NCBI RefSeq assembly: GCF_003337715.1
Contig: NZ_QPIX01000006.1
Span: 186,001-250,000, forward strand
Source: Ciceribacter lividus
Lineage (GTDB): Bacteria; Pseudomonadota; Alphaproteobacteria; Rhizobiales; Rhizobiaceae
Reading direction: 5' to 3'
Length of the DNA: 64,000 nt
Part shown: piece after piece, positions 25,679-44,402 of the stretch
Layout: each line of letters opens with the position of its first letter
Numbering within the stretch: position 1 is the first letter of the stretch
Made by a program: the position numbers and the translations under genes
Notes under the pieces: model-generated
The model's input: the letters and a program-made list of their open reading frames with translations, nothing else
Database searches by the model: none
Told to the model about the DNA's origin: nothing

Positions 25679-25792
25679 TTAGCAATTGCGAAAGCGAGGG
25701 ACGTCAGGGAACACGATCTTCTACAGATGCAGCCGGGACACGAGAGCCGGCAAAGCTGACGCTCACGCATGTGCCAGAGGGAGGAATGGCAG

Positions 25793-28700: not shown

Positions 28701-31321
28701 GTCCCCCGATCAACTGCACCTTGAACGGCGGTCCGCACACGCTCCATCCGGGAGATACGCGAAGCCTCACGCTGACGGTCGCAATCCCGAACCCCGCACC
28801 CGCCGACCCGATGTTCAACTGCATCACCTTCGACTGGGCAGCACCGGGCATGCCTCCGAACGACAACCCGGCGACCGGCGCTCCGGAGAAAAGCGACGCG
28901 ACATGCGTCCCGACACTGGCCGACGAAGGCTTCGATCTGGAAATCGCCAAGACCGGCCCGGCCGAGTGCTATGAGGGCGGCGCCTGTGACTTTGCGATCG
29001 GCGTCACCAACCACGGACCTGCGCCCTTTGCCGGGCTAATGACCTTCACCGACGAGATGCCCGCGGGATCAACGCTCGAGGGTGTCACCGGTGTCTTCAC
29101 CTGCAACAGCGCGATGCCGGGCAGCTTGACCTGCGTGACAGGCGGCGTCCTGCCACCCGGTGCGACGCAGGAAACGGCTCTGCATGTTCGCCTGCCAGAT
29201 CCCGTCGCCGGCGACGTTGTCGAGAACTGTGCCGCGATGAACTGGGACGCGCCACCGCCGGACTGGTACATCGGATCGATCTACACCGGCGACGACAACG
29301 CCGCCAATGACGGACCGGCCTGCGTCACCGTGCCGGTGCTTGCCGCCGATCTCGCGCCCTGGGGCGCGACGACCTGCGAGCTCGGAACGTCCTGCCCGAT
29401 CGACGTCAGGATCGAGAACCGCGGCGGAAGGCTGTTCAAGGGTGCCGCCGGCCTGCGCGGCACGCTCGATCCCGGTGTCACGATCAGCAGCATCGAGAGC
29501 CGGACCTCCGGTCTCACTTGCCGGGTGACGGGGACCGGACGTTATGAATGCGACAGCAGGGAGATGGTCCTGAAGCCGGGTGCTGCGGCGGACATTCACC
29601 TCACGCTCGACATTCCGGCCGATTTCCCCCACCGCCGCATCGTCCACCGCAAGGAGATGCTGTGGCCCGACATGCAGGTGAAGGACGGCAAGCCGGAGAA
29701 CGATCGCCACACCAGCACGATCACGATCCTGCAGCCGCAGGAGCCGACGACCCCACCCCCGACGCCGCCGACATCTCCACCGCCGGCAAATGTCGCGGCT
29801 GCGGATCTCGCAGTCACCAAGTCGGCTGGTCGCGATACCTGTGTCGCCGGCTCGCCATGCGACTTCCTGGTCACCGTCACCAATGCCAGCCGCACGACCT
29901 ATGTCGGGCCGCTCAGGGTCAGCGACGTCTTCACGCCCGGAAGTGCGAGGCTCGCAAGTTTCGAGCCTTCGCCCTGGACGTGCCGGGAAAGCCGCGGGAC
30001 ATTCCTCTGCAGTTACCCGCGCACGACGCTGAGGCCGGGAGAGTCGCGCACGCTCGCCCTGACACTCGAGCCGGTCCGCACCGGTTCGGGATCAGCGCGC
30101 AATTGCGCCCGTCTCGAATGGAACGAGACGGCCCTCGTCATGGCAGTCCAGCAGGCGTTGAACCAGCTCGGGCTTGCCGCGGGGGACGTCGACGGGCAGG
30201 CCGGCAGCAGGACGCGCAAGGCGATTGCCGACTACCAGAGAAGCGCCGGATTGCCTGCGACGGGCCAGATCGACACGGCACTCGTTCGCCGGCTCTTCGC
30301 CTCCTGGGGCGAGGGAGACGCCAACGCGGCAAACGACAGCGCCTGCGCCACAGTCGTCGTTCGTGAGCCCGTCGTGCCGCCGCCGGTCTGCAAGGCAGGC
30401 CAGACGCCGGTGGACCCTGCCCGCGCCGACGCCCTGCGCGCCCAGGGCTGGAGGATCACGGCGGTCAGCCGCGGCGGACGGACGATCCTGTGCGGCGTCG
30501 CTCCTCCGCCGCTCACATGCCCCTCCGGCTACACGGCCTATCGCGACAAGGACCAGATCCCGCCGAACTTTGAGGTGGTGCGTCGGGAACGTGGCGGTCA
30601 GGTGCTCTTCTGCGCCCGCCCGCAACCGGTCGTTTGCCCGTCGGGCTATCAGGCCTTCCAGAGCCAGAACCGCATACCGAAGGGTTGGGAGGTGGTCGCG
30701 CGCCGTAGCGGCGGGCAAGTCCTCTACTGTGCCCGTCCGCCACAACTTGTCTGCCCGTCCGGTTATCAAGCCTTCCAGAACCAGAACCGGATACCGAAGG
30801 GCTGGGAGGTGGTCGCGCGCCGCAGCGGCGGGCAAGTTCTCTACTGCGCCCGCCCGCCGCAACTCGTCTGCCCGACCGGTTACAAGGCCTATCCGAGCCG
30901 CAGCCGGATACCCGAGGGCTTCGAAGTGGTCGTGCGCCGCAGTGGCGACCAGGTGCTCTATTGTGCCCGCCCGCCGGCGACGACCGAAAGCTGCCCGCGC
31001 GGGTGGAAGCAGATCGACCCGAACCGTGCAGCGTCCCTCTCCCGGCAAGGCTGGCAGATCAGGCAGGTCGGAAGCCTGACCTGCGGGCGGCCCGGCGACA
31101 TCGTCGTGCCGCCGACCACCAAGCCCCCGGCCTGCACGGGTGGCCGGACCTGGAGCGCCAAGCAACAGGCCTGCGTCTGCCCCCGCAACACGCGCTGGGA
31201 TGCCCGACGCGAGCGCTGTGTACCGCTCCTGCTGCCGGTGGAGCCGGTTCCGGGCCAGACGACTCCGAAACCCCGCGAGACGATCCCGCCGCTGCTGCGG
31301 ATACTGCCACCGGTGCAATAG
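25793..31321 (+). CDS. Giant secreted DUF11-repeat protein with peptidoglycan-binding and Cys-repeat C-terminus
   Basis: The 1842-residue protein has an export signal (RHALRFIATLAISSAGLTTS, Ala-rich cleavage near residue 62), then a region of about 550 residues with propeller-like blocks such as GNIAFDPQNRQLYVSD. A Pro-rich linker follows, then six DUF11-type beta repeats each opening D-L-x-x-x-K-x-G-P-x-x-C (from about residues 641, 772, 909 and 1044, a degenerate one near 1185, and one near 1336). Then come a PG_binding_1 domain (about 1450-1502) and a C-terminal set of 39-residue Cys repeats. The ATG at 25793 has GGGAGGA eight bases upstream; 25769 is an alternative. DUF11 proteins are usually surface or matrix proteins. 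Lying next to nifB behind an FNR-like box, it may be a low-oxygen cell-surface factor. Function is unknown. Confidence 0.8.
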   Translation: MVPKTASRAKDGYRPENFHERPHPDPCTSARVRRISPWRHALRFIATLAISSAGLTTSHVAAQEALQPGEAVVTRFSGTVDDAGRRIIDTNGASASILDLRQPGGPPIGAHWFNESQRGVVTAGDIGQVFGVAFDDATPPNIYLTATAAFGLHRNADNSGWMTGMWGAGGGPGTVWKLDAANGYRPQVFAEITLSGRANSAAALGNIAFDPQNRQLYVSDLETGMIHRLRLTDGADLGTFDHGVAGRTGFLDVATGEFRSLPEVSFDPATSAHISDCSSGDFSRTPSCWNLADFRRRIWGLGVRMEPGTGSARLYYAVWGSQGFGNPDYAAAEDDDRRNAIWSVGIAADGSFDSGSVRREFFLPDFFRSPEAIARAGRSHPVSDIAFPAVGDQAVMLVAERGGMRNLGLAADDAFAYPHESRVLRYELTEAGSWRGAGRYDVGYYDRSEDGPPYIRANAAGGVSFGPGYGSNWQTDQAQPDGFVWMSGDGLCSPRGLCLDGSVGEHTDSSQVTGIEGRSSQPYEAFEPVTAFQPYPSPGPASPPEGPDGSFMVDADINTDAAGNAIAADLQRNDATRVGDVAVFQPPPGAGEAVSEGTAPPAVTTEEEITSAWPEGLPPEGWLPAPPPEDGWFPPPPWPIETDLAIRKTGPAECQEGVECTYTVTIRNLGTIAYIGPLAITDTMPAGATLASTSPGWNCTPAGGAFSCITNAFALLAPGATAAIEVNLLLPADIPGPTVHNCAAIDWFEMGTDDGPGDGNDEDCVDTPVTDGFDLGITKDGPVNCVENADCAFMVQVVNHGPGEFDGVLAVRDPLPAGATFVAAGLDPGTVTCAPSGSDILCQTPDMTLPVGGIVPIFVQMKLPDGIAGGTIENCAEINWGAMTANDGAADVHPDLACFTVNVLDSAGFFDLSLTKQGPAHCNTGGNCTYHITVANSGPDDYTGQVVVEDTTEPGVTLVSANPEWTCVAGPPINCTLNGGPHTLHPGDTRSLTLTVAIPNPAPADPMFNCITFDWAAPGMPPNDNPATGAPEKSDATCVPTLADEGFDLEIAKTGPAECYEGGACDFAIGVTNHGPAPFAGLMTFTDEMPAGSTLEGVTGVFTCNSAMPGSLTCVTGGVLPPGATQETALHVRLPDPVAGDVVENCAAMNWDAPPPDWYIGSIYTGDDNAANDGPACVTVPVLAADLAPWGATTCELGTSCPIDVRIENRGGRLFKGAAGLRGTLDPGVTISSIESRTSGLTCRVTGTGRYECDSREMVLKPGAAADIHLTLDIPADFPHRRIVHRKEMLWPDMQVKDGKPENDRHTSTITILQPQEPTTPPPTPPTSPPPANVAAADLAVTKSAGRDTCVAGSPCDFLVTVTNASRTTYVGPLRVSDVFTPGSARLASFEPSPWTCRESRGTFLCSYPRTTLRPGESRTLALTLEPVRTGSGSARNCARLEWNETALVMAVQQALNQLGLAAGDVDGQAGSRTRKAIADYQRSAGLPATGQIDTALVRRLFASWGEGDANAANDSACATVVVREPVVPPPVCKAGQTPVDPARADALRAQGWRITAVSRGGRTILCGVAPPPLTCPSGYTAYRDKDQIPPNFEVVRRERGGQVLFCARPQPVVCPSGYQAFQSQNRIPKGWEVVARRSGGQVLYCARPPQLVCPSGYQAFQNQNRIPKGWEVVARRSGGQVLYCARPPQLVCPTGYKAYPSRSRIPEGFEVVVRRSGDQVLYCARPPATTESCPRGWKQIDPNRAASLSRQGWQIRQVGSLTCGRPGDIVVPPTTKPPACTGGRTWSAKQQACVCPRNTRWDARRERCVPLLLPVEPVPGQTTPKPRETIPPLLRILPPVQ
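30512..30979 (+). repeat. Four tandem 117-bp (39-residue) Cys-repeat units
   Basis: Four in-frame units start at 30512, 30629, 30746 and 30863. Each reads C-P-[ST]-G-Y-x-A-[YF], a P-x-x-[FW]-E-V-V block and [RG]-x-G-x-Q-V-L-[FY]-C-A-R-P. Units 2 and 3 are almost identical in DNA, so recent duplication or gene conversion is likely. More divergent units flank them at about 30390 and 30990. Confidence 0.85.
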
Positions 31322-33118: not shown

Positions 33119-33144
33119 TGTAAGAAACGCCGACCTCTCGCGAC
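33119..33144 (+). promoter_or_regulatory. Predicted ECF-sigma promoter, copy 1
   Basis: TGTAAGA-N15-CGAC, shared exactly in both elements and spacing with sites at 35798 and 38638. It lies about 50 bases before the operon that contains the ECF sigma gene, which suggests autoregulation. Confidence 0.65.
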
Positions 33145-33191
33145 AAACGACCTGTGAGAAGCAACGAGACCATCCCTGGGGAGAAATAGGC

Positions 33192-33644
33192 ATGAGCAGA
33201 CAGGTATTGCTGGCGAGGCCCCATCCCTTCATTGTCAGTGAAATGAAGCCGTGGCTGGAACAGGGCGGATATTCGGTCAAACGACCGGATCACGTCGATG
33301 ATCTTGCCAGCCATGCGCGCGCCTGCGCCGGGGCAGTCATTTCGCTCGCCGTGTCATCGTCGATCGCCGCCAGTGCCGCCGACGTTGTCAAGATCGTCCG
33401 GCAGGCAAATCCGTCCCTGCCGATCCTGTTTGCAGCACTCCGCCCCTATTCGCAGATCAGGCCGGAGATTGAACGCCTGCTTCAGGGCCTCGGCATCGCG
33501 GGAGCCGTTCTCGGCGCGGATCAGGGGACTGGTTCGCCCTTCCTTGGCGGCGGCAAAACGTTCCTCTACGTATCGAAGGACGATCTTGCCGACGCCGCAC
33601 GAAGCAGCGCGGCCCGGACCCTCCTTGTCAGGCACTTTGGCTGA
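33192..33644 (+). CDS. Receiver-like protein lacking the phospho-acceptor, unknown function
   Basis: The 150-residue protein starts QVLLARPHPFIVSEMKPWLEQ, like the first strand and helix of a CheY-type fold, and continues VVKIVRQANPSLPILF (strand 4 region). The expected aspartate at the end of strand 3 is absent (AGAVISLAVSS). I therefore describe it as a degenerate receiver-like protein without assigning function. GGGGAG precedes the ATG. It is the first gene of the predicted ECF operon, 4 bases before the FAD protein. Confidence 0.6.
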   Translation: MSRQVLLARPHPFIVSEMKPWLEQGGYSVKRPDHVDDLASHARACAGAVISLAVSSSIAASAADVVKIVRQANPSLPILFAALRPYSQIRPEIERLLQGLGIAGAVLGADQGTGSPFLGGGKTFLYVSKDDLADAARSSAARTLLVRHFG

Positions 33645-33648
33645 CACC

Positions 33649-34749
33649 ATGCGCCTGGTTCTTGTCGGCGGCGGGCATGCCCATCTGATCGTGCTGGAAG
33701 CGCTGGCGAAGCGGCGTGAGGCCACGCTCGACGTTACGCTGGTAACGCCCTCTCGATGGCAATACTATTCGGGCATGCTTCCCGGCTGGATCATGGGAAG
33801 ATACGGCGACGATGATTGCCGCGTGGACCTGCGCCCTCTGGCATCCCGGGCCGGTGTGCACATGATCCTGGACCGTGTCACCGCAATGAATGCGGACCGG
33901 AACCTCCTGTGTCTGGGAGATGGCCGACACCTCGAATACGATCTTCTGTCGCTCGATACGGGCAGCGAGACCAATGTCGAATGGCTGGCGAGCCTCTCCG
34001 ATCGATTGCTGACCGTGAAGCCGGTCGAGCAGTTTTGTGAACTGTGGCGGAAGGTCTACAATCAGCTCACAGCGCTCCGAAGCTCGCGCATCGTGGTCGT
34101 GGGCGGTGGAGCGGCCGGGGCCGAATTGTCGATCGCCATGAAGACAGCGTTGTCGGCGGCCGAAAGGAAATGCGCGGTGACACTGGTCACGGGTAACTCC
34201 GGATTGCTTTCCGGCCACAATCCCATGGTCCGGCGACGCATGCAGTCGGCGCTCGAGGCCGCCGGGATCAGGGTCCGGCGCGAGCGAGCTGCAGGGGTCG
34301 AGAACGGCGTTGTCTTGCCAAGCGGCGAGCTGGTCAGGGCAGATTTCGTGATCGCCGCAACCGGGGCCCGTCCGTCGGCATTTCTGGCCCAATCACGGCT
34401 TGGTCTCAGCGACAACGGCTTTGTCGCGGTCGATAGCTTTCACAGAAGCGTATCGCATCGGAATGTTTTTGCGGCAGGAGACGTGTCTGCCCGCTTGGAC
34501 GACGCCACGACGAGATCCGGTATCCATGCGGTGCGCGCCGGACCGATACTGGCACACAACCTGATCGCGGCTGCAGAGGATCGACCCCTTCGACCCTACA
34601 GGCCCAGACGACGGTCCCTCTACCTGCTGGTGTCGGGACCGGACAAGGCGATCCTCTCGTGGGGTGGCCTGGGAGCTGCCGGGGGATGGGTCTGGCGCTG
34701 GAAAGACCGGATCGATCGCAATTTCATCAAGCGTTTCCGCCAAGGCTGA
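33649..34749 (+). CDS. FAD-dependent pyridine nucleotide-disulfide-type oxidoreductase
   Basis: The 366-residue flavoprotein has FAD site LVGGGHAHLIVLE at the N-terminus, NAD(P) site VVVGGGAAGAELSIAM (about residue 148) and FAADGDVS-like FAAGDVSARL (about 275). It resembles NDH-2-like enzymes, especially the family often fused to selenide-water dikinase (N-terminal half only). No redox CxxxxC is seen. The substrate is unknown. It is cotranscribed with the orphan upstream. Confidence 0.8.
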   Translation: MRLVLVGGGHAHLIVLEALAKRREATLDVTLVTPSRWQYYSGMLPGWIMGRYGDDDCRVDLRPLASRAGVHMILDRVTAMNADRNLLCLGDGRHLEYDLLSLDTGSETNVEWLASLSDRLLTVKPVEQFCELWRKVYNQLTALRSSRIVVVGGGAAGAELSIAMKTALSAAERKCAVTLVTGNSGLLSGHNPMVRRRMQSALEAAGIRVRRERAAGVENGVVLPSGELVRADFVIAATGARPSAFLAQSRLGLSDNGFVAVDSFHRSVSHRNVFAAGDVSARLDDATTRSGIHAVRAGPILAHNLIAAAEDRPLRPYRPRRRSLYLLVSGPDKAILSWGGLGAAGGWVWRWKDRIDRNFIKRFRQG

Positions 34750-34768
34750 ACGAGGCAGGGTCTCAAAC

Positions 34769-34990
34769 ATGCAGAAATTCTTCACTGTGGCCTTGCAGCG
34801 TCCCATCGTGACAAATTCGGTTCGCATCTCGCTCTTTGTCGGCACGGTCCTCAATCTCATCAATCAAGGGGGAACCATATTGTCCGGAGACGCCCCGTCG
34901 TGGCCTCACGTAGTCTTGAACTACGCAGTGCCGTATTGTGTCGCAACGTACAGTGCGGTGCGGATCGCAATGAAGCGCAAGGGGGAATGA
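34769..34990 (+). CDS. nrtS: NrtS-like small membrane protein
   Basis: The 73-residue protein has two hydrophobic segments (about residues 18-34 and 44-62) and the sequence NSVRISLFVGTVLNLINQG, as in the NrtS nitrate/nitrite transporter family. It starts 20 bases after the FAD gene and its stop overlaps the ECF sigma start (ATGA). The transport role is inferred only from family resemblance. Confidence 0.65.
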   Translation: MQKFFTVALQRPIVTNSVRISLFVGTVLNLINQGGTILSGDAPSWPHVVLNYAVPYCVATYSAVRIAMKRKGE

Positions 34991-35586
34991 TGAGCCTGAC
35001 TGCCGGTACTTTCGACGACCCTGCGTTTCTCAACAATCTTCGGGCCCAGATGCTGAAGTTCGCGACCCTGCAGCTTTCGGATCCGGTCGCCGCCGAAGAC
35101 GCAGTTCAGGAGGCACTCACCGGCGCACTGCGCAATGCCACATCCTTTGGCGGTCGCTCCGCCTTGCGAACCTGGGTTTTCGCAATCCTGAAGAACAAGA
35201 TCGTCGATATGATCCGGCAACGTCAACGGCGAGCCGAAATCCAACCCCTCCTGAACTTTGAATCCGACGACGAAGAGACAACGGAGCTCTTCGATCGCCG
35301 CGGCATGTGGCGACCGGAGGACCGGCCGACGGACTGGGGAAACCCGGAAGATGAACTGCTTGGCAAGGAGTTCTGGCGCGTGTTCGACGCTTGCCTCAAT
35401 CACCTGCCCGCCCAGCAGGGTCGTATTTTCATGATGCGCGAATTCCTCGACATGGCGACGACGGAAATATGCGCCGAAGCCGACATTACGGTTTCGAACC
35501 TCAATGTCCTGCTTCACAGGGCAAGGCTCCGCCTGCGCGGTTGCCTTGAAAGCCACTGGTTCGCAAAGGAGACCGCCGAATGCTGA
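34987..35586 (+). CDS. ECF-type RNA polymerase sigma factor
   Basis: The 199-residue sigma factor has region 2 (VAAEDAVQEALTGALRN, then LRTWVFAILKNKIVDMIRQ) and region 4 (LPAQQGRIFMMREFLDMATTEICAEADITVSNLNVLLHRAR), separated by a longer linker (about residues 85-125) with an RRGMWRPEDRPTDW motif. That linker is characteristic of a sigma subfamily paired with small zinc-finger proteins. It overlaps nrtS by four bases and the anti-sigma by seven. Three TGTAAGA-N15-CGAC sites nearby are its proposed targets. Confidence 0.9.
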   Translation: MMSLTAGTFDDPAFLNNLRAQMLKFATLQLSDPVAAEDAVQEALTGALRNATSFGGRSALRTWVFAILKNKIVDMIRQRQRRAEIQPLLNFESDDEETTELFDRRGMWRPEDRPTDWGNPEDELLGKEFWRVFDACLNHLPAQQGRIFMMREFLDMATTEICAEADITVSNLNVLLHRARLRLRGCLESHWFAKETAEC

Positions 35587-35786
35587 ACTGCTGGACGGCA
35601 ACCGGGCTCGCCTCGCAGGCGATGGAACGCAAACTGACGATGATGGAGCGTCTCAAACTGAACGCGCATATTGCCATGTGTTCCGGCTGTCGCAACTTCA
35701 CGTCTCAGGTTCGCGACCTGCGGCAAATGTCCCGTTTCTACTGCTCCGGAGCCGGGCAGGGTGAAAGCCCGAAAAAGCAGGACTGA
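35580..35786 (+). CDS. Zinc-finger (zf-HC2) anti-sigma factor
   Basis: The 68-residue protein has the ZAS zinc motif H-x3-C-x2-C (HIAMCSGC, about residues 30-37) preceded by LTMMERLKLN. There is no membrane segment, so it is a soluble anti-sigma that probably senses redox or zinc release. It overlaps the sigma gene by seven bases, as sigma/anti-sigma pairs usually do. Confidence 0.85.
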   Translation: MLNCWTATGLASQAMERKLTMMERLKLNAHIAMCSGCRNFTSQVRDLRQMSRFYCSGAGQGESPKKQD

Positions 35787-35797
35787 GTTCGGCCGGC

Positions 35798-35823
35798 TGT
35801 AAGATTACGCCCGGTTCCACGAC
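35798..35823 (+). promoter_or_regulatory. Predicted ECF-sigma promoter, copy 2
   Basis: TGTAAGA-N15-CGAC with an extended match to copy 1 (CCGGC before, ACGCC after). CGAC ends only 9 bases before the ATG at 35832, so the transcript would have almost no leader for that start; a TTG at 35859 with GGGGTGG upstream is an alternative start. Confidence 0.65.
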
Positions 35824-35831
35824 GAAAGGGC

Positions 35832-38018
35832 ATGAAGGCTCTTTCTCCGGGGTGGAACTTGAAACGCGCAATTACTGTCGCCCTCATAGGGATCGTCACG
35901 GGCATCGTCTACGTATATGGCAGGGAACACATCCCCTCCCTGCCCGAGCTGAAGGCGAATATGGCCTTCCTCACCGCGACGGTCGAAGACAAGCCGCTGA
36001 CCTCGGTCCTTCTGTACTTCGGCATCTATGTCGCCGTTGCTGCGTTTTCCGTACCTGCCGGCACGTTGATGACCTTGGCCGGCGGTGCGCTTTTCGGTTT
36101 CTGGGGCGGATTGCTGATCGTCTCTTTTGCCTCGAGCCTCGGTGCTCTCCTCGCCTTTCTTGTGTCCAGGCTTCTTCTCCACGATGTCGTGCAGCGACGC
36201 TACGGTTCGCGTCTTGCACCGTTCAACGATGGCCTCAAGAAGGACGGTGCATTCTATCTGTTCACGCTGCGCCTCATTCCCGTGTTCCCCTTCTTTGTCG
36301 TGAACCTGGTCATGGGCCTGACCCCCGTTCGTGCCCGGACCTTCTACTGGGTCAGCCAGCTGGGCATGCTGCCGGCGACCGCCGTGTATGTGAACGCGGG
36401 AACACAATTGGCGCAAATCGACAATGCCCGTGATGTCCTGTCGCCGGGCATCCTCGCCTCGTTCGCCCTGATCGGCGTCTTTCCCTGGATCGCTAGGCGG
36501 ATGCTCGCCTTTTGGAAGCAACGCAAGGTCTATGGCCGGTGGCGCAAACCCCACAGCTTCGATCGCAATCTGATCGTCATCGGCGCAGGGGCCGCCGGCC
36601 TCGTCAGCGCCTATATCGCTGCAGCCGTCAAGGCCAGGGTAGCGCTCGTCGAAGCCCATAAGATGGGCGGCGACTGCCTGAACTACGGCTGCGTGCCGAG
36701 CAAGGCCCTGATCAGAAGCGCCAAGCTTGCCCAGCAGATACGTAAGGCAGATCGCTATGGTCTGTTCGCCACCGAACCGGCCTTTTCCTTTCGCCGCGTC
36801 ATGCAGCGAATTCACGATGTCGTCGCGGAAGTCGCACCCCACGACAGCGTCGAGCGATACGAAGGGCTCGGCGTCGAGGTGCTGCGGGGTCATGCACGCA
36901 TCAAGGATCCATGGACCGTCGAGATCACCCTCCCGGACGGCAAGGTCCGGACGCTCACGACCCGAGCCATCATCATTGCAACCGGCGCCAGTCCATTCGT
37001 CCCGCCGCTCCCGGGCATCGACGAGGTCGGCTACCTGACCTCCGATACCTTGTGGGAACGATTTGCCGACCTCGACGTCCCGCCAGAACGGCTGGTGGTC
37101 CTGGGTGGAGGTCCCATCGGCTGCGAGCTCGCCCAGAGCTTCGCCCGACTCGGGTCCAGCGTGACACAAATCGAAATGGCGCCGAGACTGCTCGTCCGCG
37201 AGGACGACGACGTATCGCACTATGCACTCGAGGCACTGCAGAACGATGGCGTTCGTGTTCTCACGGGGCACAGAGCGCTTTCCTGCGAAGTCCATGACGG
37301 TGAAAGGGCTATCATCGTCGAGAAGGATGACGAGCGGGAGCGGATTGCATTCGATGAACTGATCTGCGCGGTCGGCAGGTCACCCCGCCTGAAAGGCTTC
37401 GGTCTCGAGGAACTGGGAATACCGGTCGGTCGGACGGTCGAGACGAACGCCTATCTGGAAACGATCTACCCGAACATCCTGGCCGCCGGCGATGTCGCGG
37501 GCCCCTATCAGTTCACGCATACGGCGGGACACCAGGCCTGGTTTGCCGCGGTCAACGCGCTGTTTGGAACGTTCAAGAAGTTCAAGGCCGACTACCGGGT
37601 CATCCCGTGGACCACATTCCTTGATCCGGAAGTGGCCCGCGTCGGCCTGAACGAGCAAGAAGCCCGCGAACAGGGCATTCCCTTCGAAGCGACTCGCTAC
37701 GGCATCGATGACCTCGACCGGGCGATCGCCGATGGAACGGCACACGGCTTCGTCAAGGTGCTGACGGTTCCCGGCAAGGACACTCTGCTCGGGGTGACCA
37801 TCGTCGGCGAACATGCCGGCGACCTTCTCGCGGAGTTCGTGCTGGCGATGAAGCACGGGCTCGGCCTCAACAAGATCCTGTCCACGATCCACACCTACCC
37901 GACCCTGGCCGAGGCCAACAAGTATGTCGCCGGCGAGTGGCGACGCGCCCACGTCTCTCGCCGCGTGCAATCGTTTCTGGAAACCTTCCACCGCTATCGG
38001 CGCGGAGAGCGCGCATGA
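35832..38018 (+). CDS. VTT-domain (TVP38/TMEM64) and mercuric-reductase-like flavoprotein fusion
   Basis: The 728-residue fusion has about five membrane segments with a VTT domain (about residues 55-205, including FSVPAGTLMTLAGGALFGF and the FFVVNLVMGL block). A linker leads to a pyridine nucleotide-disulfide oxidoreductase (about 242-728) with FAD site VIGAGAAGLVSAYIA, redox disulfide CLNYGCVPSKAL, NAD(P) site VLGGGPIGCELAQS and the catalytic H-x4-E analogue HTYPTLAE. No extra MerA heavy-metal Cys pair is present at the C-terminus. The substrate is unknown. It overlaps the CDP-alcohol phosphatidyltransferase start by ATGA. The start may instead be TTG 35859, given the promoter position. Confidence 0.88.
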   Translation: MKALSPGWNLKRAITVALIGIVTGIVYVYGREHIPSLPELKANMAFLTATVEDKPLTSVLLYFGIYVAVAAFSVPAGTLMTLAGGALFGFWGGLLIVSFASSLGALLAFLVSRLLLHDVVQRRYGSRLAPFNDGLKKDGAFYLFTLRLIPVFPFFVVNLVMGLTPVRARTFYWVSQLGMLPATAVYVNAGTQLAQIDNARDVLSPGILASFALIGVFPWIARRMLAFWKQRKVYGRWRKPHSFDRNLIVIGAGAAGLVSAYIAAAVKARVALVEAHKMGGDCLNYGCVPSKALIRSAKLAQQIRKADRYGLFATEPAFSFRRVMQRIHDVVAEVAPHDSVERYEGLGVEVLRGHARIKDPWTVEITLPDGKVRTLTTRAIIIATGASPFVPPLPGIDEVGYLTSDTLWERFADLDVPPERLVVLGGGPIGCELAQSFARLGSSVTQIEMAPRLLVREDDDVSHYALEALQNDGVRVLTGHRALSCEVHDGERAIIVEKDDERERIAFDELICAVGRSPRLKGFGLEELGIPVGRTVETNAYLETIYPNILAAGDVAGPYQFTHTAGHQAWFAAVNALFGTFKKFKADYRVIPWTTFLDPEVARVGLNEQEAREQGIPFEATRYGIDDLDRAIADGTAHGFVKVLTVPGKDTLLGVTIVGEHAGDLLAEFVLAMKHGLGLNKILSTIHTYPTLAEANKYVAGEWRRAHVSRRVQSFLETFHRYRRGERA

Positions 38019-38650
38019 TCGATCGCTACGTCCTGCCTCTGCAGAAACGGATCTTGCAGCCGGTCGCAAGCCAGGTGGCCAAGCATGGAGTTCATGCGGA
38101 CGCCATAAGCCTTTCGGGCTTCGCCATCGGCTTGTCGGCCGTTCCGCTCCTGGCATTCGACCTGTACCGCGAGGCACTTCTCGTCATTTTGCTCAATCGA
38201 CTGTTCGATGGCCTTGACGGAGCGGTTGCGCGGGCGGCCGGGCCGACCGACCGGGGTGCGTTCATCGACATTGCCTTCGACTTCTTCTTCTACGCCGCGG
38301 TGCCGGTCGGCTTCGCGATCGCCGATCCGGCCGTGAATGCCCTGCCCGCGGCAATCCTGGTTGCGTCGTTCATGGGAACGGGGTCGAGCTTCCTCGCATT
38401 TGCCATCATCGCCGCGAAGCGCGGATTGACGGCCGCGGACTACCCGCAAAAGGGGATCTATTATCTGGGCGGCCTTGCAGAGGGGGCGGAAACGATCGCC
38501 GTCTTCGTCGCGATGTGTCTGTGGCCAGATCATTTTCCGCTTATCGCATTTTTCTACGCCCTGATGTGCCTGATGACGACGGTGACCCGTTGGCATCAGG
38601 GATGGGTCGCCTTCGCGCAGAAAAACATCGATGCGAATGTAAGAACTTAG
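38015..38650 (+). CDS. CDP-alcohol phosphatidyltransferase family protein
   Basis: The 211-residue membrane enzyme has the full signature D-x2-D-G-x2-A-R-x8-G-x3-D-x3-D (from DGLDGAVARA to DIAFD, about residues 68-92) and several membrane helices. It transfers a phosphatidyl group from CDP-diacylglycerol to an alcohol acceptor, which cannot be named. It is coupled by ATGA to the VTT-reductase fusion, linking phospholipid synthesis to a lipid-scramblase-like VTT protein. Confidence 0.88.
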   Translation: MIDRYVLPLQKRILQPVASQVAKHGVHADAISLSGFAIGLSAVPLLAFDLYREALLVILLNRLFDGLDGAVARAAGPTDRGAFIDIAFDFFFYAAVPVGFAIADPAVNALPAAILVASFMGTGSSFLAFAIIAAKRGLTAADYPQKGIYYLGGLAEGAETIAVFVAMCLWPDHFPLIAFFYALMCLMTTVTRWHQGWVAFAQKNIDANVRT

Positions 38651-38663
38651 CGGCTCTGGCGAC
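38638..38663 (+). promoter_or_regulatory. Predicted ECF-sigma promoter, copy 3
   Basis: TGTAAGA-N15-CGAC overlaps the last codons of the CDP-alcohol phosphatidyltransferase and ends 37 bases before the ynjB start. Elements and spacing are identical to copies 1 and 2. Confidence 0.6.
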
Positions 38664-38699
38664 CAACGCCCATAAGCCGATCTTTCCATGGGAGACTTC

Positions 38700-39893
38700 A
38701 TGAAAAACGTTCTTCTGTTGACCGCAGCGCTGGTGGTCCACGCTGGGGGCGCCTTCGCCGACAGTGGTTGGGACGACACGCTCGCCAAGGCGCGTGGCCA
38801 AACCGTCTATTGGAACGCATGGGGCGGAGACGAGCGAACCAACGCCTTCATCTCCTGGGCGGGCGAACAGGTCAAGGCGCGCTACGGCGTGACCATTCAA
38901 CAGGTCAAGCTGACCGATACGGCGGAAGCCGTAACCCGCGTTATCGCGGAGAAGGCAGCGGGCAAGACGAACGGTGGCTCCGTCGACCTGATCTGGATAA
39001 ACGGTCCCAATTTTCTCTCGATGAAGGAAAAGGGACTTCTGCACGGCCCATTCGCAAATGAACTGCCAAATGCTCGGTTCCTCGACCTCGGCGCGAACTC
39101 CGCGGCATCGGTGGATTTCACGGTCCCGGTCGAGGGTTACGAATCGCCCTGGCGACTCGCCAAGTTCGTCTTCAACTATGATTCCGCGCGGGTTCAGGCG
39201 CCGCCGAAGTCCATGAGGGCACTGCTTGAGTGGGCAAAGGAGCATCCGGGACGCTTCACCCACCCCGATGTCAGTAACTTCATGGGCGCCACATTTCTCA
39301 AACAGGCCCTGATCGAACTCGCGCCTGACCGCAGCGTTTTGCAAAGCCCCGTGAGCGATGCCAGCTTCGAGACCGCATCCGCACCGCTTTGGGCCTGGTA
39401 TGACGCGTTGCGACCGAATCTCTGGCAGGCCGGAACGACATTCCCTGCCAATGGTTCCGCCCAGCAGCAGTTGCTGAACGACCGAGAGATCGACATGTCG
39501 ATGTCTTTCGATCCGGCCAGCGCCGCTGCCGCCATCGCCGGTGGCCAATTGCCCGACACGATCCGAACCTATTCGCTCAAGGGTGGGACCATCGGCAACA
39601 TCAGTTTCGTCGCAATCCCCTTCAATGCGGCACACAAGGAAGGAGCGGAGGTCGTTGCAGACTTCCTGCTGGAGCCTGCGACACAGGCCCATGCGCAGGA
39701 TATATCCGTTCTCGGCAGCTTCTCTGTCCTGGATCAGAACAAGCTGGATGAACAACAGAAGGCGCTCTTTGCCTCTCTGCCGACATCCCCTGCCCTGCCC
39801 GGCAACGCCGAGCTTGGAGCAACCTTGCTCGAGCCCCATGCATCATGGATGACCCGGCTTTCGGAGGAATGGGCAAAGCGCTACACGAAATGA
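38700..39893 (+). CDS. ynjB: YnjB-type ABC transporter substrate-binding protein
   Basis: The 397-residue periplasmic protein has a cleavable signal (MKNVLLLTAALVVHAGGAFA) and the YnjB-type sequence TVYWNAWGGDERTNAFISW. The ATG at 38700 is chosen for GGGAG five bases upstream and a clean signal peptide; ATG 38688 is an alternative. It is the binding protein for the transporter completed by the next two genes. The substrate is unknown. Confidence 0.88.
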   Translation: MKNVLLLTAALVVHAGGAFADSGWDDTLAKARGQTVYWNAWGGDERTNAFISWAGEQVKARYGVTIQQVKLTDTAEAVTRVIAEKAAGKTNGGSVDLIWINGPNFLSMKEKGLLHGPFANELPNARFLDLGANSAASVDFTVPVEGYESPWRLAKFVFNYDSARVQAPPKSMRALLEWAKEHPGRFTHPDVSNFMGATFLKQALIELAPDRSVLQSPVSDASFETASAPLWAWYDALRPNLWQAGTTFPANGSAQQQLLNDREIDMSMSFDPASAAAAIAGGQLPDTIRTYSLKGGTIGNISFVAIPFNAAHKEGAEVVADFLLEPATQAHAQDISVLGSFSVLDQNKLDEQQKALFASLPTSPALPGNAELGATLLEPHASWMTRLSEEWAKRYTK

Positions 39894-41599
39894 GTAGTCG
39901 CACCGGCATCTGGTTGCAGTTCTGTGGAGCCGCCATTCTTTGTGGCGGCTTCGTCGCTCCCATTGCCCTTGGTTTCTGGGAGACGCTGCTCCCGGCATTC
40001 GGGATCCTTCCCGCTATCGGCGCCGACGGGTTCAGCCTGAAGGCCTGGACTGCACTTGCCGCCTTGCCCGGTGTATGGACCAGCCTTCGTCTGACCGTGT
40101 TCACGGGGCTTCTGTCCACACTGTTGTCGCTCGGACTTGCCGTCGCCTTTTGCGCGTCCATGCATGGACGCGTGGGCGCATGGCGGGCCGAGCGCGTACT
40201 TTCTCCGCAACTGGCCGCCCCCCATGCGGCGATGGCCATCGGGATCGCATTCCTGATTGCGCCTTCAGGCTGGCTGGCGCGGCTCTTCAGTCCCTGGGCG
40301 ACGACGTGGGGAGTGCCTCCCGCCATTACGACGGTCCACGACCCGGCGGGCCTGTCGCTGGTCCTCGGTCTCGTGGTCAAGGAAGTTCCTTTTCTGCTCC
40401 TCGTGATCATTGCCGCGCTCAACCAGGTCTCCGCCCGACAGCAATTGGCCGCGGGACGCGCGCTCGGCTACGGCCACGGCGTCATCTGGATCAAGATCAT
40501 CTTCCCCCAGGTCTACCGCCAGATCCGACTGCCGGTTTATGCCGTGCTTGCCTTTGCCCTCTCCGTCGTCGACATGGCGATCATTCTCGGGCCTTCAAAT
40601 CCGCCGGTTCTCTCCGTCGCGGCCATGCGGTGGTTCATGGCGGCGGATGTCGATCTGCTGTTGCCGGCGGCCGCGGCTTCGATCCTTCAGATCGCCGTGG
40701 TCGTTGCGGGAATATCGGGCTGGTGGCTCGGCGAAAAGCTGGTCGCCGCCGCGGGTCGAGCGATGATCCGGCGCGGCGGCAGGGGACTTGAAAGCGAACC
40801 CTTGATCCGGTTCGCGACCGTCTGCGTCCTGGCGCTTCTGGCGGTCGGCTTTGCAGCAATCCTGTCCTTGATCATGTGGTCGTTCACCTGGCGCTGGTCC
40901 TTTCCGGATGCCATGCCCTCATCCTTCACGACGTCCATCTGGGTGCGATCGGCCAGCGGCTGGCTCCGGGCGCTCGCCAACACCGCAGGTCTCGGATTCG
41001 GTTCGACCCTGCTTTCGCTCCTCCTGGCAATCCTCTGGCTCGAAGGCGAGGACCGGAGTGGACGCAGGCTTCTGCCTGGTGCACCGGTCATACTCTATCT
41101 GCCTCTTCTCCTGCCGCAGGTCGGCTTCCTCTACGGGCTTCAAGTCACTTTCCTGCGCGCAGGGATAGATGGCTCCCTGGCCGCTGTTCTCTGGGGCCAC
41201 ACGCTTTTTGTTTTTCCCTACGTGATGCTGGCGCTCAGCGATCCATGGCGAGCACTGGACCGCCGCTATGTACGAACAGCGGCGGCGCTCGGCGCGTCGC
41301 CGCTCAGAACCCTGTTCCGCCTCAAACTCCCACTTCTCCTGCGTCCACTGCTGGCCGCCGCAGCCATCGGCTTTGCCGTGAGCGCCGCCCAATATCTGCC
41401 GACGCTATTTCTGGGAGCCGGCCGCATCGCCACGCTCACAACCGAGGCGGTAACGCTCTCGTCCGGCGGGGATCGCAGGATCATAGGTGTCTATGCAGCC
41501 CTTCAGGCCCTGGTCCCCTTGCTCGTCTACGGCATCGCCTTCTCTCTTCCCGGAATGATCTACGCTGGCCGCCGCGAACTCAACGGAGTGACAGTATGA
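39890..41599 (+). CDS. ynjC: YnjC-type ABC transporter permease (two-domain)
   Basis: The 569-residue permease has about 12 membrane segments in two homologous halves, each with an EAA-like loop (AAGRALGYGHGVIWIKIIFP and AAALGASPLRTLFRLKLPLL). The start overlaps the ynjB stop by ATGA. It forms the channel of the YnjBCD-type transporter. Confidence 0.88.
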   Translation: MSSRTGIWLQFCGAAILCGGFVAPIALGFWETLLPAFGILPAIGADGFSLKAWTALAALPGVWTSLRLTVFTGLLSTLLSLGLAVAFCASMHGRVGAWRAERVLSPQLAAPHAAMAIGIAFLIAPSGWLARLFSPWATTWGVPPAITTVHDPAGLSLVLGLVVKEVPFLLLVIIAALNQVSARQQLAAGRALGYGHGVIWIKIIFPQVYRQIRLPVYAVLAFALSVVDMAIILGPSNPPVLSVAAMRWFMAADVDLLLPAAAASILQIAVVVAGISGWWLGEKLVAAAGRAMIRRGGRGLESEPLIRFATVCVLALLAVGFAAILSLIMWSFTWRWSFPDAMPSSFTTSIWVRSASGWLRALANTAGLGFGSTLLSLLLAILWLEGEDRSGRRLLPGAPVILYLPLLLPQVGFLYGLQVTFLRAGIDGSLAAVLWGHTLFVFPYVMLALSDPWRALDRRYVRTAAALGASPLRTLFRLKLPLLLRPLLAAAAIGFAVSAAQYLPTLFLGAGRIATLTTEAVTLSSGGDRRIIGVYAALQALVPLLVYGIAFSLPGMIYAGRRELNGVTV

Positions 41600-42234
41600 A
41601 CCAGCTCGTACTCGAAGAGATTTCGATAGCCGCACCCGGCGCGACGTCATCGCTGATCTCGGACCTCAGCCTGACCGTCGCTCCCGGTGAGATCGTCACC
41701 ATCATGGGCAAGAGCGGTATCGGCAAATCAACGCTGCTCTCCTTCATCGGCGGACATCTGGACCGGGGTTTCAGCGCGAGCGGCACGGTGCGCATCGGGG
41801 GAAGAGATATCACCGACACGCCGGCAGAGAAGCGCAAGATCGGCATTCTGTTTCAGGACGATCTCTTGTTTCCGCATCTCTCGGTTGGGGACAACCTTGC
41901 CTTTGGCCTTTCTGCGGACGTCAAGGGACGTAAGGAACGCAGGAGATGCGTCGAGTGCGCCCTCGAAAGCGCCGGCCTTGATGGTTTCGCAGACCGGGAT
42001 CCGGCGACGCTGTCCGGAGGACAGCGTGCGCGTGTGGCGTTGATGCGCACCTTGCTGGCCCGGCCCGACGCCCTGCTTCTCGATGAACCCTTTTCGAAGT
42101 TGGACAATGGCCTCAGGGATGACGTTCGTGCGTTCGTCTTTGCGCATGGAAAAGAGCAGAGGCTTCCGGTTCTGATGGTCACCCATGACGAGGCCGACGC
42201 GGCGGCTGCCGGTGGAAGACGGCTCCTGTTGTAG
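41596..42234 (+). CDS. ynjD: YnjD-type ABC transporter ATPase
   Basis: The 212-residue ATPase has Walker A GKSGIGKST, signature LSGGQRAR, Walker B ALLLDEPF and the switch histidine in THDEA. It overlaps ynjC by ATGA, ends the ECF-linked transporter operon, and runs convergently into the next gene with a 1-base gap. Confidence 0.9.
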   Translation: MNQLVLEEISIAAPGATSSLISDLSLTVAPGEIVTIMGKSGIGKSTLLSFIGGHLDRGFSASGTVRIGGRDITDTPAEKRKIGILFQDDLLFPHLSVGDNLAFGLSADVKGRKERRRCVECALESAGLDGFADRDPATLSGGQRARVALMRTLLARPDALLLDEPFSKLDNGLRDDVRAFVFAHGKEQRLPVLMVTHDEADAAAAGGRRLLL

Positions 42235-42766: not shown

Positions 42767-43336
42767 TCAGGCATCCCAGCGGTAGCCGGAGAAAACCGCA
42801 TCCAGTTCGGTATGAAAGAGATGGTTGGCGTAGTTGCTGATGGTCTTCACCGCGATCGCAAGAATGATCTCCAGGACGTGGCGTTCGCTGAAGCCGGCAG
42901 CAAGAAAGACCTGAAGCTCCCCGGGCGACGGATTCCCGCGGCCCTTCACCATCAGTCGTGTGAACACCGAAAGCGCCTGCAACCGGGCATCGGGCAGGAT
43001 GTTTCCGGCGCGCAGCGCGCTGAGTACCGCCGCCGGTACGTTGGACATCTTCTCGCCGACCATGCTGTGCGCGGCCATGCAATACTGGCAGCGATTTTCA
43101 TGGCTGATGGTCAGGAGCACGACCTCCTGCTCGGCAGGAGCGAGATGGCTCTCCGCCCGAAAATGCTTGTAACCGACCATGTAGGTGTCCAGCAGGCCGG
43201 ACGAGTTGGCCATGTTGGTATACATGTTCGGCACGAAGCCGAGGGACTTCCGGGTCCCGTCGAGCAGGGCCTTCACAGTGGGTTCGGCGGCATCGGCGTC
43301 CACGCCGTCAAGTGTCAATCGTGCTATCTCGGCCAT
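42767..43336 (-). CDS. AhpD-like carboxymuconolactone decarboxylase family protein (1)
   Basis: The 189-residue protein has the AhpD catalytic motif E-x2-C-x2-C-x3-H (ENRCQYCMAAH, about residues 80-90), a peroxidase-like active site. The GFVPNMYTNMANSSGLL block near the N-terminus fits this clade. It probably acts in peroxide detoxification. Its promoter region contains one copy of the dispersed repeat, and it is divergent from an AraC regulator. Confidence 0.82.
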   Translation of the reverse strand: MAEIARLTLDGVDADAAEPTVKALLDGTRKSLGFVPNMYTNMANSSGLLDTYMVGYKHFRAESHLAPAEQEVVLLTISHENRCQYCMAAHSMVGEKMSNVPAAVLSALRAGNILPDARLQALSVFTRLMVKGRGNPSPGELQVFLAAGFSERHVLEIILAIAVKTISNYANHLFHTELDAVFSGYRWDA

Positions 43337-43360
43337 CGTCCAGTCTCCATTGTCAACACA

Positions 43361-43428
43361 GGTTTTATTTGCGAAACGTCGGGACAGCGCTGTGACAAAC
43401 GCACCCCCGTGATCGCCTGGAGACTGTA
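43361..43428. repeat. Dispersed repeat, copy A (68 bp)
   Basis: This segment matches 59715-59778 with only a few substitutions and small indels: it begins GGTTTTATTTGCGAAACGTC and ends with CCTGGAGACTGTA. It lies in the AhpD(1)/AraC divergent promoter region. GGAGACTG at 43419-43426 is inverted relative to CAGTCTCC at 43341-43348. The repeat could be a shared promoter/operator or a duplication scar. Confidence 0.75.
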
Positions 43429-43490
43429 GCAATGGCGAGCACGGGACCCCATGTGAGGGATTCCGGAATGCATGTCCGCCTGTCCGGGAG

Positions 43491-44402
43491 ATGACGTTGG
43501 ACGCACTGACAGCCTTGGCCAATGGCCTCAACCTGCGCGCAAAGCTCGCCTACGCCGGCGGGGTGTGCGGACAATGGACGATGGACCACAATTCCGACAG
43601 GTCGATCTGGTTTCACCTCGTCGGCAAAGGGCATGGATGGGTCCACTCCCCTGCGATCGATGGACCGCTGGAACTGGCCGAGGGCGACCTGATGGTTTTC
43701 TTGCCCCATGCCGCGGAACACTACCTGTCCTATAGTCCTGACCATGTGCCGCTGGGCAACGCGAGCGGCGATCTGACCACTTGGGCGGCAGGCGAGACAG
43801 GCTTCATCTGCGGCGAGATCGAGCTCACTGCGCCGCAGTCGCCGCTCTGGCATGCCCTGCCCGCCGAAATCGTCATCCGGAAGAAGGAGGCGGGCGACAG
43901 CCTTTCAAGCCTGATCGAGCTGGCTATCGCCGAGTCCGAGCATTCCCGTTTCGGCAGCGAGGCGGTGATCGAGCGCCTGTGTGACGGCTTCTTCATTCTG
44001 CTGGTCCGACATTGCATCGAGGCCGAACTGGTGCGCGACGGCGTGTTTGCAGCCATGAAGGATCGCCGGATCGCCACAGTTCTGGAACTGATTCACCGTG
44101 AGCCCTGGCATCGATGGACGATTGCCGAACTCTGTGGGCGAGCGGGCATTTCCAAGACCATTCTCGCCGAGAAATTCGCGTCCCGGATCGGCATGTCACC
44201 CATCGAATACCTCACGGACTGGCGGATGCAGATCGCCGCTCGTTGGCTGAAGGAAACCGCCATGACGCTCGATCACGTGGCGGAGCGCTGCGGATACGAC
44301 ACGGCATCCTCATTCAGCAAGGCGTTCAAGCGAGCCTTCGGCGTCTCTCCGGCGACGTATCGGCGCAGAGGTGATCCCATACCGCCCGCAACGGGTTCAT
44401 GA
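43491..44402 (+). CDS. AraC-family regulator with cupin-type sensor (AhpD-divergent)
   Basis: The 303-residue regulator has an N-terminal cupin_6-like domain (WFHLVGKGHGWVHS, about residues 40-53, and LELAEGDLMVFLP) and a C-terminal double helix-turn-helix (WTIAELCGRAGISKTILAEKF and MTLDHVAERCGYDTASSFSKAF). It is divergent from AhpD(1) and is the likely controller of it. Confidence 0.85.
   Translation: MTLDALTALANGLNLRAKLAYAGGVCGQWTMDHNSDRSIWFHLVGKGHGWVHSPAIDGPLELAEGDLMVFLPHAAEHYLSYSPDHVPLGNASGDLTTWAAGETGFICGEIELTAPQSPLWHALPAEIVIRKKEAGDSLSSLIELAIAESEHSRFGSEAVIERLCDGFFILLVRHCIEAELVRDGVFAAMKDRRIATVLELIHREPWHRWTIAELCGRAGISKTILAEKFASRIGMSPIEYLTDWRMQIAARWLKETAMTLDHVAERCGYDTASSFSKAFKRAFGVSPATYRRRGDPIPPATGS

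Follow-up and report, generated by a model that had tools for sequence, protein, structure and literature searches.

The question raised by this locus is how far the control of an extracytoplasmic function (ECF) sigma factor extends beyond its own operon. The sigma factor is encoded in a 64,000-nucleotide stretch of Ciceribacter lividus DNA (contig NZ_QPIX01000006.1, positions 186,001 to 250,000; hereafter the window, whose numbering is used throughout). Judged from sequence comparisons, the answer is very probably that one sigma factor of the TIGR02943 family governs a single regulon, read from three predicted promoters, whose output is a membrane-redox gene set.

The first-pass annotation of this DNA had pointed to the same two elements, separated by the same 15-base spacer, at three places. 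This proved exact: a pattern search of the window for TGTAAGA-N15-CGAC retrieved the following three sites, all on the + strand.

33119-33144, + strand: P1, predicted ECF promoter, TGTAAGA-N15-CGAC(AAA), upstream of the sigma operon
35798-35823, + strand: P2, predicted promoter, TGTAAGA-N15-CGAC(GAA), upstream of the VTT-flavoreductase gene
38638-38663, + strand: P3, predicted promoter, TGTAAGA-N15-CGAC(CAA), upstream of the YnjBCD-type transporter

The first part of P3 lies within the final codons of the phosphatidyltransferase gene. All three sites share the continuation CGAC-N-A-A, and A is also the commonest base at both positions after CGAC-N (32 of 44 each) in the sites of other loci described below. 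None of 100 shuffled windows gave three matches (mean 0.00, largest 0), and in the whole genome (4.52 Mb, 32 contigs) the pattern matches these three sites only. Reversed, the pattern is found 2 + 3 times in the same genome, which means that around five chance copies per genome are normal and that single copies mean little; for three sites within 9.1 kb, the expectation is about 0.01 (P ~2e-7). Further members of the regulon were sought in the genome by exact patterns only. A relaxed search (TGTAAGA-N15/16-CGWC) added two sites, which are not claimed as members because its backward control gives 6 + 10. One of these extra sites lies inside an open reading frame (ORF), and the other, TGTAAGA-N16-CGTC (L222, G000:C10:162997-163023), which could be due to chance, stands about 90 nt upstream of a 385-amino-acid (aa) ORF.

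The predicted promoters serve ten genes, all on the same strand, whose products were assigned with Pfam and NCBIfam profiles at curated cut-offs:

33192-33644, + strand: gene 1, small protein with a receiver-like fold (low-confidence AlphaFold model, pLDDT 63.7)
33649-34749, + strand: FADox, FAD/NAD(P) oxidoreductase (TIGR03169, Nterm_to_SelD, 341 bits, cut-off 310)
34769-34990, + strand: NrtS-family small protein (NF038050, 35 bits, cut-off 25)
34990-35586, + strand: ECF sigma factor (TIGR02943, 246.6 bits, cut-off 162.2)
35580-35786, + strand: anti-sigma factor (NF052368, 62.4 bits, cut-off 50)
35832-38018, + strand: VTT-flavoreductase, a VTT (DedA/TVP38-like) domain fused to a pyridine nucleotide-disulfide reductase
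38015-38650, + strand: CDP-alcohol phosphatidyltransferase (49% identity over 199 aa to E. coli YnjF)
38688-39893, + strand: substrate-binding protein (NF008633; 41% to E. coli YnjB; start at 38688 or 38700)
39890-41599, + strand: ATP-binding cassette (ABC) permease (50% to E. coli YnjC over 124 aa)
41596-42234, + strand: ABC ATPase (51% to E. coli YnjD)

The family assignments are supported by these profile matches. They agree with the earlier description of an FAD oxidoreductase, NrtS, a VTT-disulfide-reductase fusion, a phospholipid synthase and an ABC transporter, to which gene 1 is now added. The zinc anti-sigma factor named there is likewise supported, both by its score and by an intact motif, C4-X25-H30-X3-C34-X2-C37. 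We take this sigma/anti-sigma pair to be of the Neisseria sigma-E and Haemophilus RpoE2 kind. Gene 1 has no Pfam or NCBIfam match over cut-off and, among the loci compared by tblastn, is found only in two near relatives; the structural model suggests a receiver-like fold. In the VTT-flavoreductase, cysteines 282 and 287 are invariant across nine aligned sequences. Its identification as a mercuric reductase (MerA) was rejected, as TIGR02053 gives 363.5 bits, below the cut-off of 454.45. The gene probably starts at TTG 35859 instead of ATG 35832: the ATG lies only 8 nt past the CGAC of P2, while the TTG lies 35 nt past it, close to the 36 nt between the equivalent site and the annotated VTT start in Sphingopyxis sp. 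FD7. Fusions of a VTT domain with a disulfide reductase have been described as the commonest fusion in that DedA subfamily (PMC10127716). For the YnjB-type protein, no sequence relative was found in the PDB at E 1e-5.

The conservation of the sites argues for their function. Searching for the motif before orthologous genes, as had been proposed, showed that the whole unit and all three sites are present in two other genomes of the genus. Across the three genomes, 0 of 33 promoter element columns vary, whereas 82 of 394 columns in spacers and flanks do (p=0.0009). The ten genes are shared, at 82-99% identity, with the close relative Ciceribacter thiooxidans. The sigma factor itself is present in 28 of 60 genomes of the genus (own included) at an identity of at least 61%, a 29th genome holding a 28% match. 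Loci were compared from 20 of the other 27, namely the two near relatives and 18 others; in 15 of these 18, the sigma gene has a GTAAG-type site upstream. YnjB occurs in 25 of the 60 genomes, 21 of which are among the 28 sigma-positive ones (p=1e-6, uncorrected for kinship). Farther away, three sphingomonads (L044, L126, L142) conserve the order FADox-NrtS-sigma-anti-sigma-VTT, with GTAAGA upstream of FADox and GTAAGC or GTAAGG upstream of VTT, although two of them are Sphingopyxis with identical second sites and hence not independent.

A wider comparison was made with 80 VTT-flavoreductase loci (L087-L166) from named genomes, many of them metagenome-assembled genomes (MAGs), which were retrieved with a nine-protein profile and kept from at least 586 confirmed ones. 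Sites of the form GTAAG-N16/17-CG[AT]C were counted up to 200 nt upstream of genes of the set, sigma and anti-sigma genes not being counted. There are 44 such sites in 30 of the 80 loci, whereas 29 anagram controls over the same loci give a mean of 0.7 and a maximum of 5. The spacing is sharply defined (27 sites at N16 and 17 at N17, against 0 to 3 at other spacings), and the -10 element extends to CGAC[TC]AA. A search for TIGR02943 covered 49 of the 80 genomes, while 13 of 30 others already showed a sigma match within the locus. The motif tracks this family, being present in 13 of 17 sigma-positive genomes and in 3 of 32 negative ones (p=4e-6), which six control anagrams do not. The relaxed GTAAG element had been picked after GTAAGG, GTAAGC and GTAAGT sites were seen, so that this is not a blind test; an earlier table built on a narrower hexamer gave a weaker association (8/17 vs 3/32, p=0.005). 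In 20 phylum-wide sigma loci, the relaxed pattern is found 13 times, in 9 loci, whereas the control mean is 0.2. These comparisons support the coupling between promoter and sigma factor.

A second promoter form appears among the same 80 loci. Published work (PMC sources listed below) describes the ECF16 promoter as GTAAC-N17-CGAA and the ECF16 anti-sigma factor NrsF as a six-transmembrane protein. The pattern GTAAC-N16/17-CGAA is found in 13 of the 80 loci, with 13 of its 14 sites at N17, which is the published ECF16 spacing (anagrams, 0.5 sites). Sites of this kind lie upstream of the flavoreductase gene or arsS in L098, L106, L110, L117, L128-L130, L150, L156, L164 and L165. A search for NrsF, chosen after the GTAAC sites had been seen, covered 40 of the 80 genomes, including 7 of the 13 GTAAC loci; the motif is present in 7 of 15 positive genomes and in 0 of 25 negative ones, although in two of these seven loci (L126, L146) the site precedes DUF2282- or DoxX-type genes and not the flavoreductase gene. 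Upstream of flavoreductase, arsS or FADox, the GTAAG form occurs in 30 loci, the GTAAC-N17 form in 10, both in none and neither in 40. Flavoreductase loci thus appear to carry either a TIGR02943-type or an ECF16-like promoter, never both among the 80, a pattern that we consider new; relatives of the flavoreductase elsewhere tend to carry promoters that fit a stress sigma factor of their own genome. Bufferin-type clusters (DUF2282/DUF692/DoxX-type genes) were also seen near related sigma genes in L068, L083, L088 and L159, where they are also near YnjBCD/ynjF-like, flavoreductase or arsS genes.

The neighbours of the flavoreductase gene fall into two classes as well. In the 69 of the 80 loci that span at least 12 kb, arsS is found in 27, a ynjF-like gene in 25, both in none and neither in 17 (p=7e-8). 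The two would therefore be mutually exclusive near this gene, which also appears to be new.

A different arrangement prevails among the other YnjB loci of the genus, 20 of 22 of which were sampled. In one genome (G527), the output genes have no adjoining sigma gene, TGTAAGG-N15-CG precedes ynjB and a TIGR02943-like sigma factor is encoded about 174 kb away. In 17 of the other 19 (L180-L198), a different ECF sigma factor adjoins the output genes. This second sigma factor, with a weak anti-sigma match nearby, is 62-68% identical to a sigma factor of Pseudooceanicola algae and 31-33% to that of the window; the Pseudooceanicola protein does not reach the TIGR02943 cut-off, and its anti-sigma factor exceeds that of NF052368. 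The upstream patterns differ here, with TGARATC-N-CGTA before ynjB in 16 of 19 loci and GTAAC-N-CGT[CA] before VTT in 11 of 19, both being pattern counts without an anagram control. The exact TGTAAGA-N15-CGAC precedes the gene of the second sigma factor in 14 of 17 loci, where GTAAG anagrams average 0.4 sites. The simplest reading suggests a cascade, in which the TIGR02943 sigma factor would drive the second ECF sigma factor. Of 15 genomes that have the first sigma factor, 13 carry the site, as does one of the two that lack it (G545 yes, G517 no), numbers that do not permit a judgement on tracking. Of the 23 YnjB loci of the genus that were examined, 17 have the output genes next to the second sigma factor and carry other upstream patterns.

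The comparisons with known systems rely on passages of PMC2893595, PMC3240639, PMC12452194, PMC12668002, PMC10127716, PMC6180224, PMC8315932 and PMC7907618. In these passages, the consensus of the Neisseria sigma-E is GTMAGBWTT-N12/13-CGTCTAAH, with which P1 shares the GTAAG core and the 21-nt distance to CGNC-N-AA. The zinc motif given there for homologous anti-sigma factors, C/H-X23-26-H-X3-C-X2-C, is satisfied by the protein of the window. As in this unit, the sigma-E/MseR system of Neisseria meningitidis (NMB2140-2145, msrAB) has its zinc-motif anti-sigma factor encoded directly downstream, in an autoregulated polycistronic operon. What it controls, in contrast, is msrAB together with the rpoE operon, which includes a DoxX-like gene, with no mention of a VTT-flavoreductase, YnjF or YnjBCD in the same passages. 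The RpoE2/HrsE pair of Haemophilus influenzae is similar in its 67-aa zinc-motif anti-sigma factor, its induction by hypochlorous acid (HOCl) and its targets for repair of the periplasm, and differs in that these are msrAB, dmt and a DoxX cluster and in its weak autoregulation (PMC7907618). The ECF16/SigF-NrsF systems (Brucella BcrS, Sinorhizobium meliloti RpoE7) also respond to oxidants according to these passages, and ECF16-like sites precede the flavoreductase gene elsewhere; they differ from the window in the promoter and in the six-transmembrane anti-sigma factor.

The output genes have their own counterpart in E. coli K-12, in the ydjXYZ-ynjABCDE and ynjF genes. Besides the homologues of YnjF, YnjB, YnjC and YnjD already listed, the VTT domain is 41% identical to YdjZ, so that the outputs are related to ydjX/ydjZ, ynjB, ynjC, ynjD and ynjF, and the unit brings together the VTT, YnjBCD and YnjF homologues of this set. 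The 18-kb E. coli stretch differs in containing no sigma gene and in that its VTT proteins are not fused to a reductase; YdjY, YnjA and YnjE had no match among the proteins of the unit at E 1e-3. In literature titles and abstract openings, no function was found for ydjXYZ-ynjABCDEF. The unit had been described as unfamiliar in its entirety, and our literature searches did not find it either, or this type of regulator with this output set, but the set is not without precedent, given its E. coli counterpart. The regulator type (an ECF sigma factor with a small zinc-motif anti-sigma factor) is known, while its output set here would be new.

The following mechanism can be proposed, in which the inducer, the mode of release and the joint membrane role of the outputs in redox or metal(loid) repair are extrapolated from the protein families. 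The small zinc anti-sigma factor would hold the TIGR02943 sigma factor inactive, as published for its Neisseria and Haemophilus relatives, in which oxidants play a part; HOCl induction and repression by HrsE have been reported for RpoE2 (PMC7907618). Attack on the zinc-thiol centre, most likely by an oxidant or by a metal or metalloid that reacts with thiols, would free the sigma factor, which would then transcribe its own operon from P1, in a positive feedback, and the downstream genes from P2 and P3, these two providing extra expression of the output genes. The membrane disulfide reductase and the flavin oxidoreductase may restore thiols or quinones at the membrane, while YnjBCD would act as the importer of a small molecule, and a headgroup would be attached to CDP-diacylglycerol by the YnjF-type enzyme. 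Of the single stress-responsive membrane/redox system proposed earlier, the shared promoter thus stands on the comparisons above, whereas the adjectives come from the families.

Several observations weigh against a single regulon of this kind. Four sigma-positive genomes (L096, L112, L134, L135) lack the motif in the examined locus, three motif-bearing MAGs (L097, L132, L151) have no sigma match over cut-off, and the genomes compared are related, which makes the p-values optimistic. With the strict hexamer, the 20 phylum-wide sigma loci show no excess, with 1 site at N15 (4 at N16) against up to 2 at N15 for other anagrams, and 3 of the 13 relaxed sites lie just upstream of the anti-sigma gene, probably inside the sigma coding sequence. 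In the 69 long flavoreductase loci, neither the ynjF-like gene nor FADox nor NrtS is significantly associated with the presence of the sigma factor, and for arsS the association reaches p=0.06. Moreover, of the 21 sigma loci of the genus that were examined, 18 lack this unit beside the sigma gene, the Neisseria consensus has B and not A at base 6 of the -35 element and T and not A at base 3 of the -10 element, and the genome of the window also holds an ECF16-type NrsF anti-sigma factor, on another contig.

This last protein opens the possibility that the sites belong to another ECF sigma factor of the genome, for instance one of ECF16 type, which we regard as improbable. A weak sigma match and a DUF692-family gene lie close to NrsF on the same contig (G000:C11:14688-17587; L007, L233, L234), and ECF16 promoters share GTAA and have counterparts before flavoreductase genes elsewhere. 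However, the -35 element, the spacing and the -10 element all differ (GTAAG-N16-CGAC vs GTAAC-N17-CGAA), and the only site found upstream near the NrsF and DUF692-family genes is GTAAC-N17-CGTA, with no GTAAG-type site in the 3.8-kb stretch that holds the one DUF692-family gene of the genome. The GTAAG form, in addition, tracks TIGR02943, and the GTAAC form tracks NrsF. Assignment of the unit to ECF16 (SigF/NrsF) was rejected on the same grounds, as its sites are of the GTAAG-N16-CGAC form and its adjoining anti-sigma factor belongs to NF052368, NrsF being encoded elsewhere. That the repeats are due to chance is hardly credible: some five chance matches per genome are expected, but not their clustering, their invariant element columns, their placement and spacing, or their tracking of the sigma factor across taxa.

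An alternative that stands at only a little under even odds, and that is compatible with control by the sigma factor, is that all ten genes form one transcript, with P1 as the main promoter and P2 and P3 as boosters. Neighbouring genes, all on the same strand, overlap or are separated by no more than 49 nt if the first-listed starts are used (72 nt upstream of the VTT gene if TTG 35859 is the start), and no terminator-like site was found on the + strand between the anti-sigma and VTT genes or between the phosphatidyltransferase and YnjB genes. On the other hand, P2 and P3 vary no more than P1 in their elements, and in G527 the outputs, distant from the sigma gene, have their own site upstream of ynjB. 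The earlier claim of sites before three operons therefore holds for their placement and for the gene contents, while the three operons may form a single transcript in which P2 and P3 are internal promoters. We consider quite unlikely that the unit is an arsenosugar or arsenolipid pathway. Many genomes have flavoreductase relatives that carry this kind of promoter and adjoin arsS, glycosyltransferase and methyltransferase-like genes, but no ArsS over cut-off was found in the genome of the window (best 25 bits, cut-off 300), for which an arsenosugar pathway was consequently rejected, and arsS and ynjF-like genes co-occur in 0 of 69 loci.

A single regulon of the TIGR02943 sigma factor would provide a testable regulator, a promoter and a likely class of signals for the relatives of the E. 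coli ydjXYZ-ynjABCDEF genes. The two promoter forms and the second arrangement suggest that the same output genes have come under the control of unrelated ECF systems, with their promoters replaced to match, which would offer a clear view of regulon rewiring if the match between promoter and sigma factor holds in a phylogeny-aware analysis. More speculatively, and in our opinion doubtful, the VTT-flavoreductase could be a shared envelope-stress core plugged into TIGR02943, ECF16 or the second-ECF cascade, with mutually exclusive branches, either arsenosugar or YnjF/YnjBCD, the latter making an unusual phospholipid from an imported headgroup.

Two neighbouring features complete the picture of the locus. 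Just past the unit, a carboxymuconolactone decarboxylase-like gene (window 42767-43531, - strand) is also present in both near relatives; E. coli YnjA is annotated as AhpD-like, although the query used did not match this gene to YnjA. Upstream of the unit lies a 1850-aa ORF (window 25769-31321), whose translation has repeated segments.

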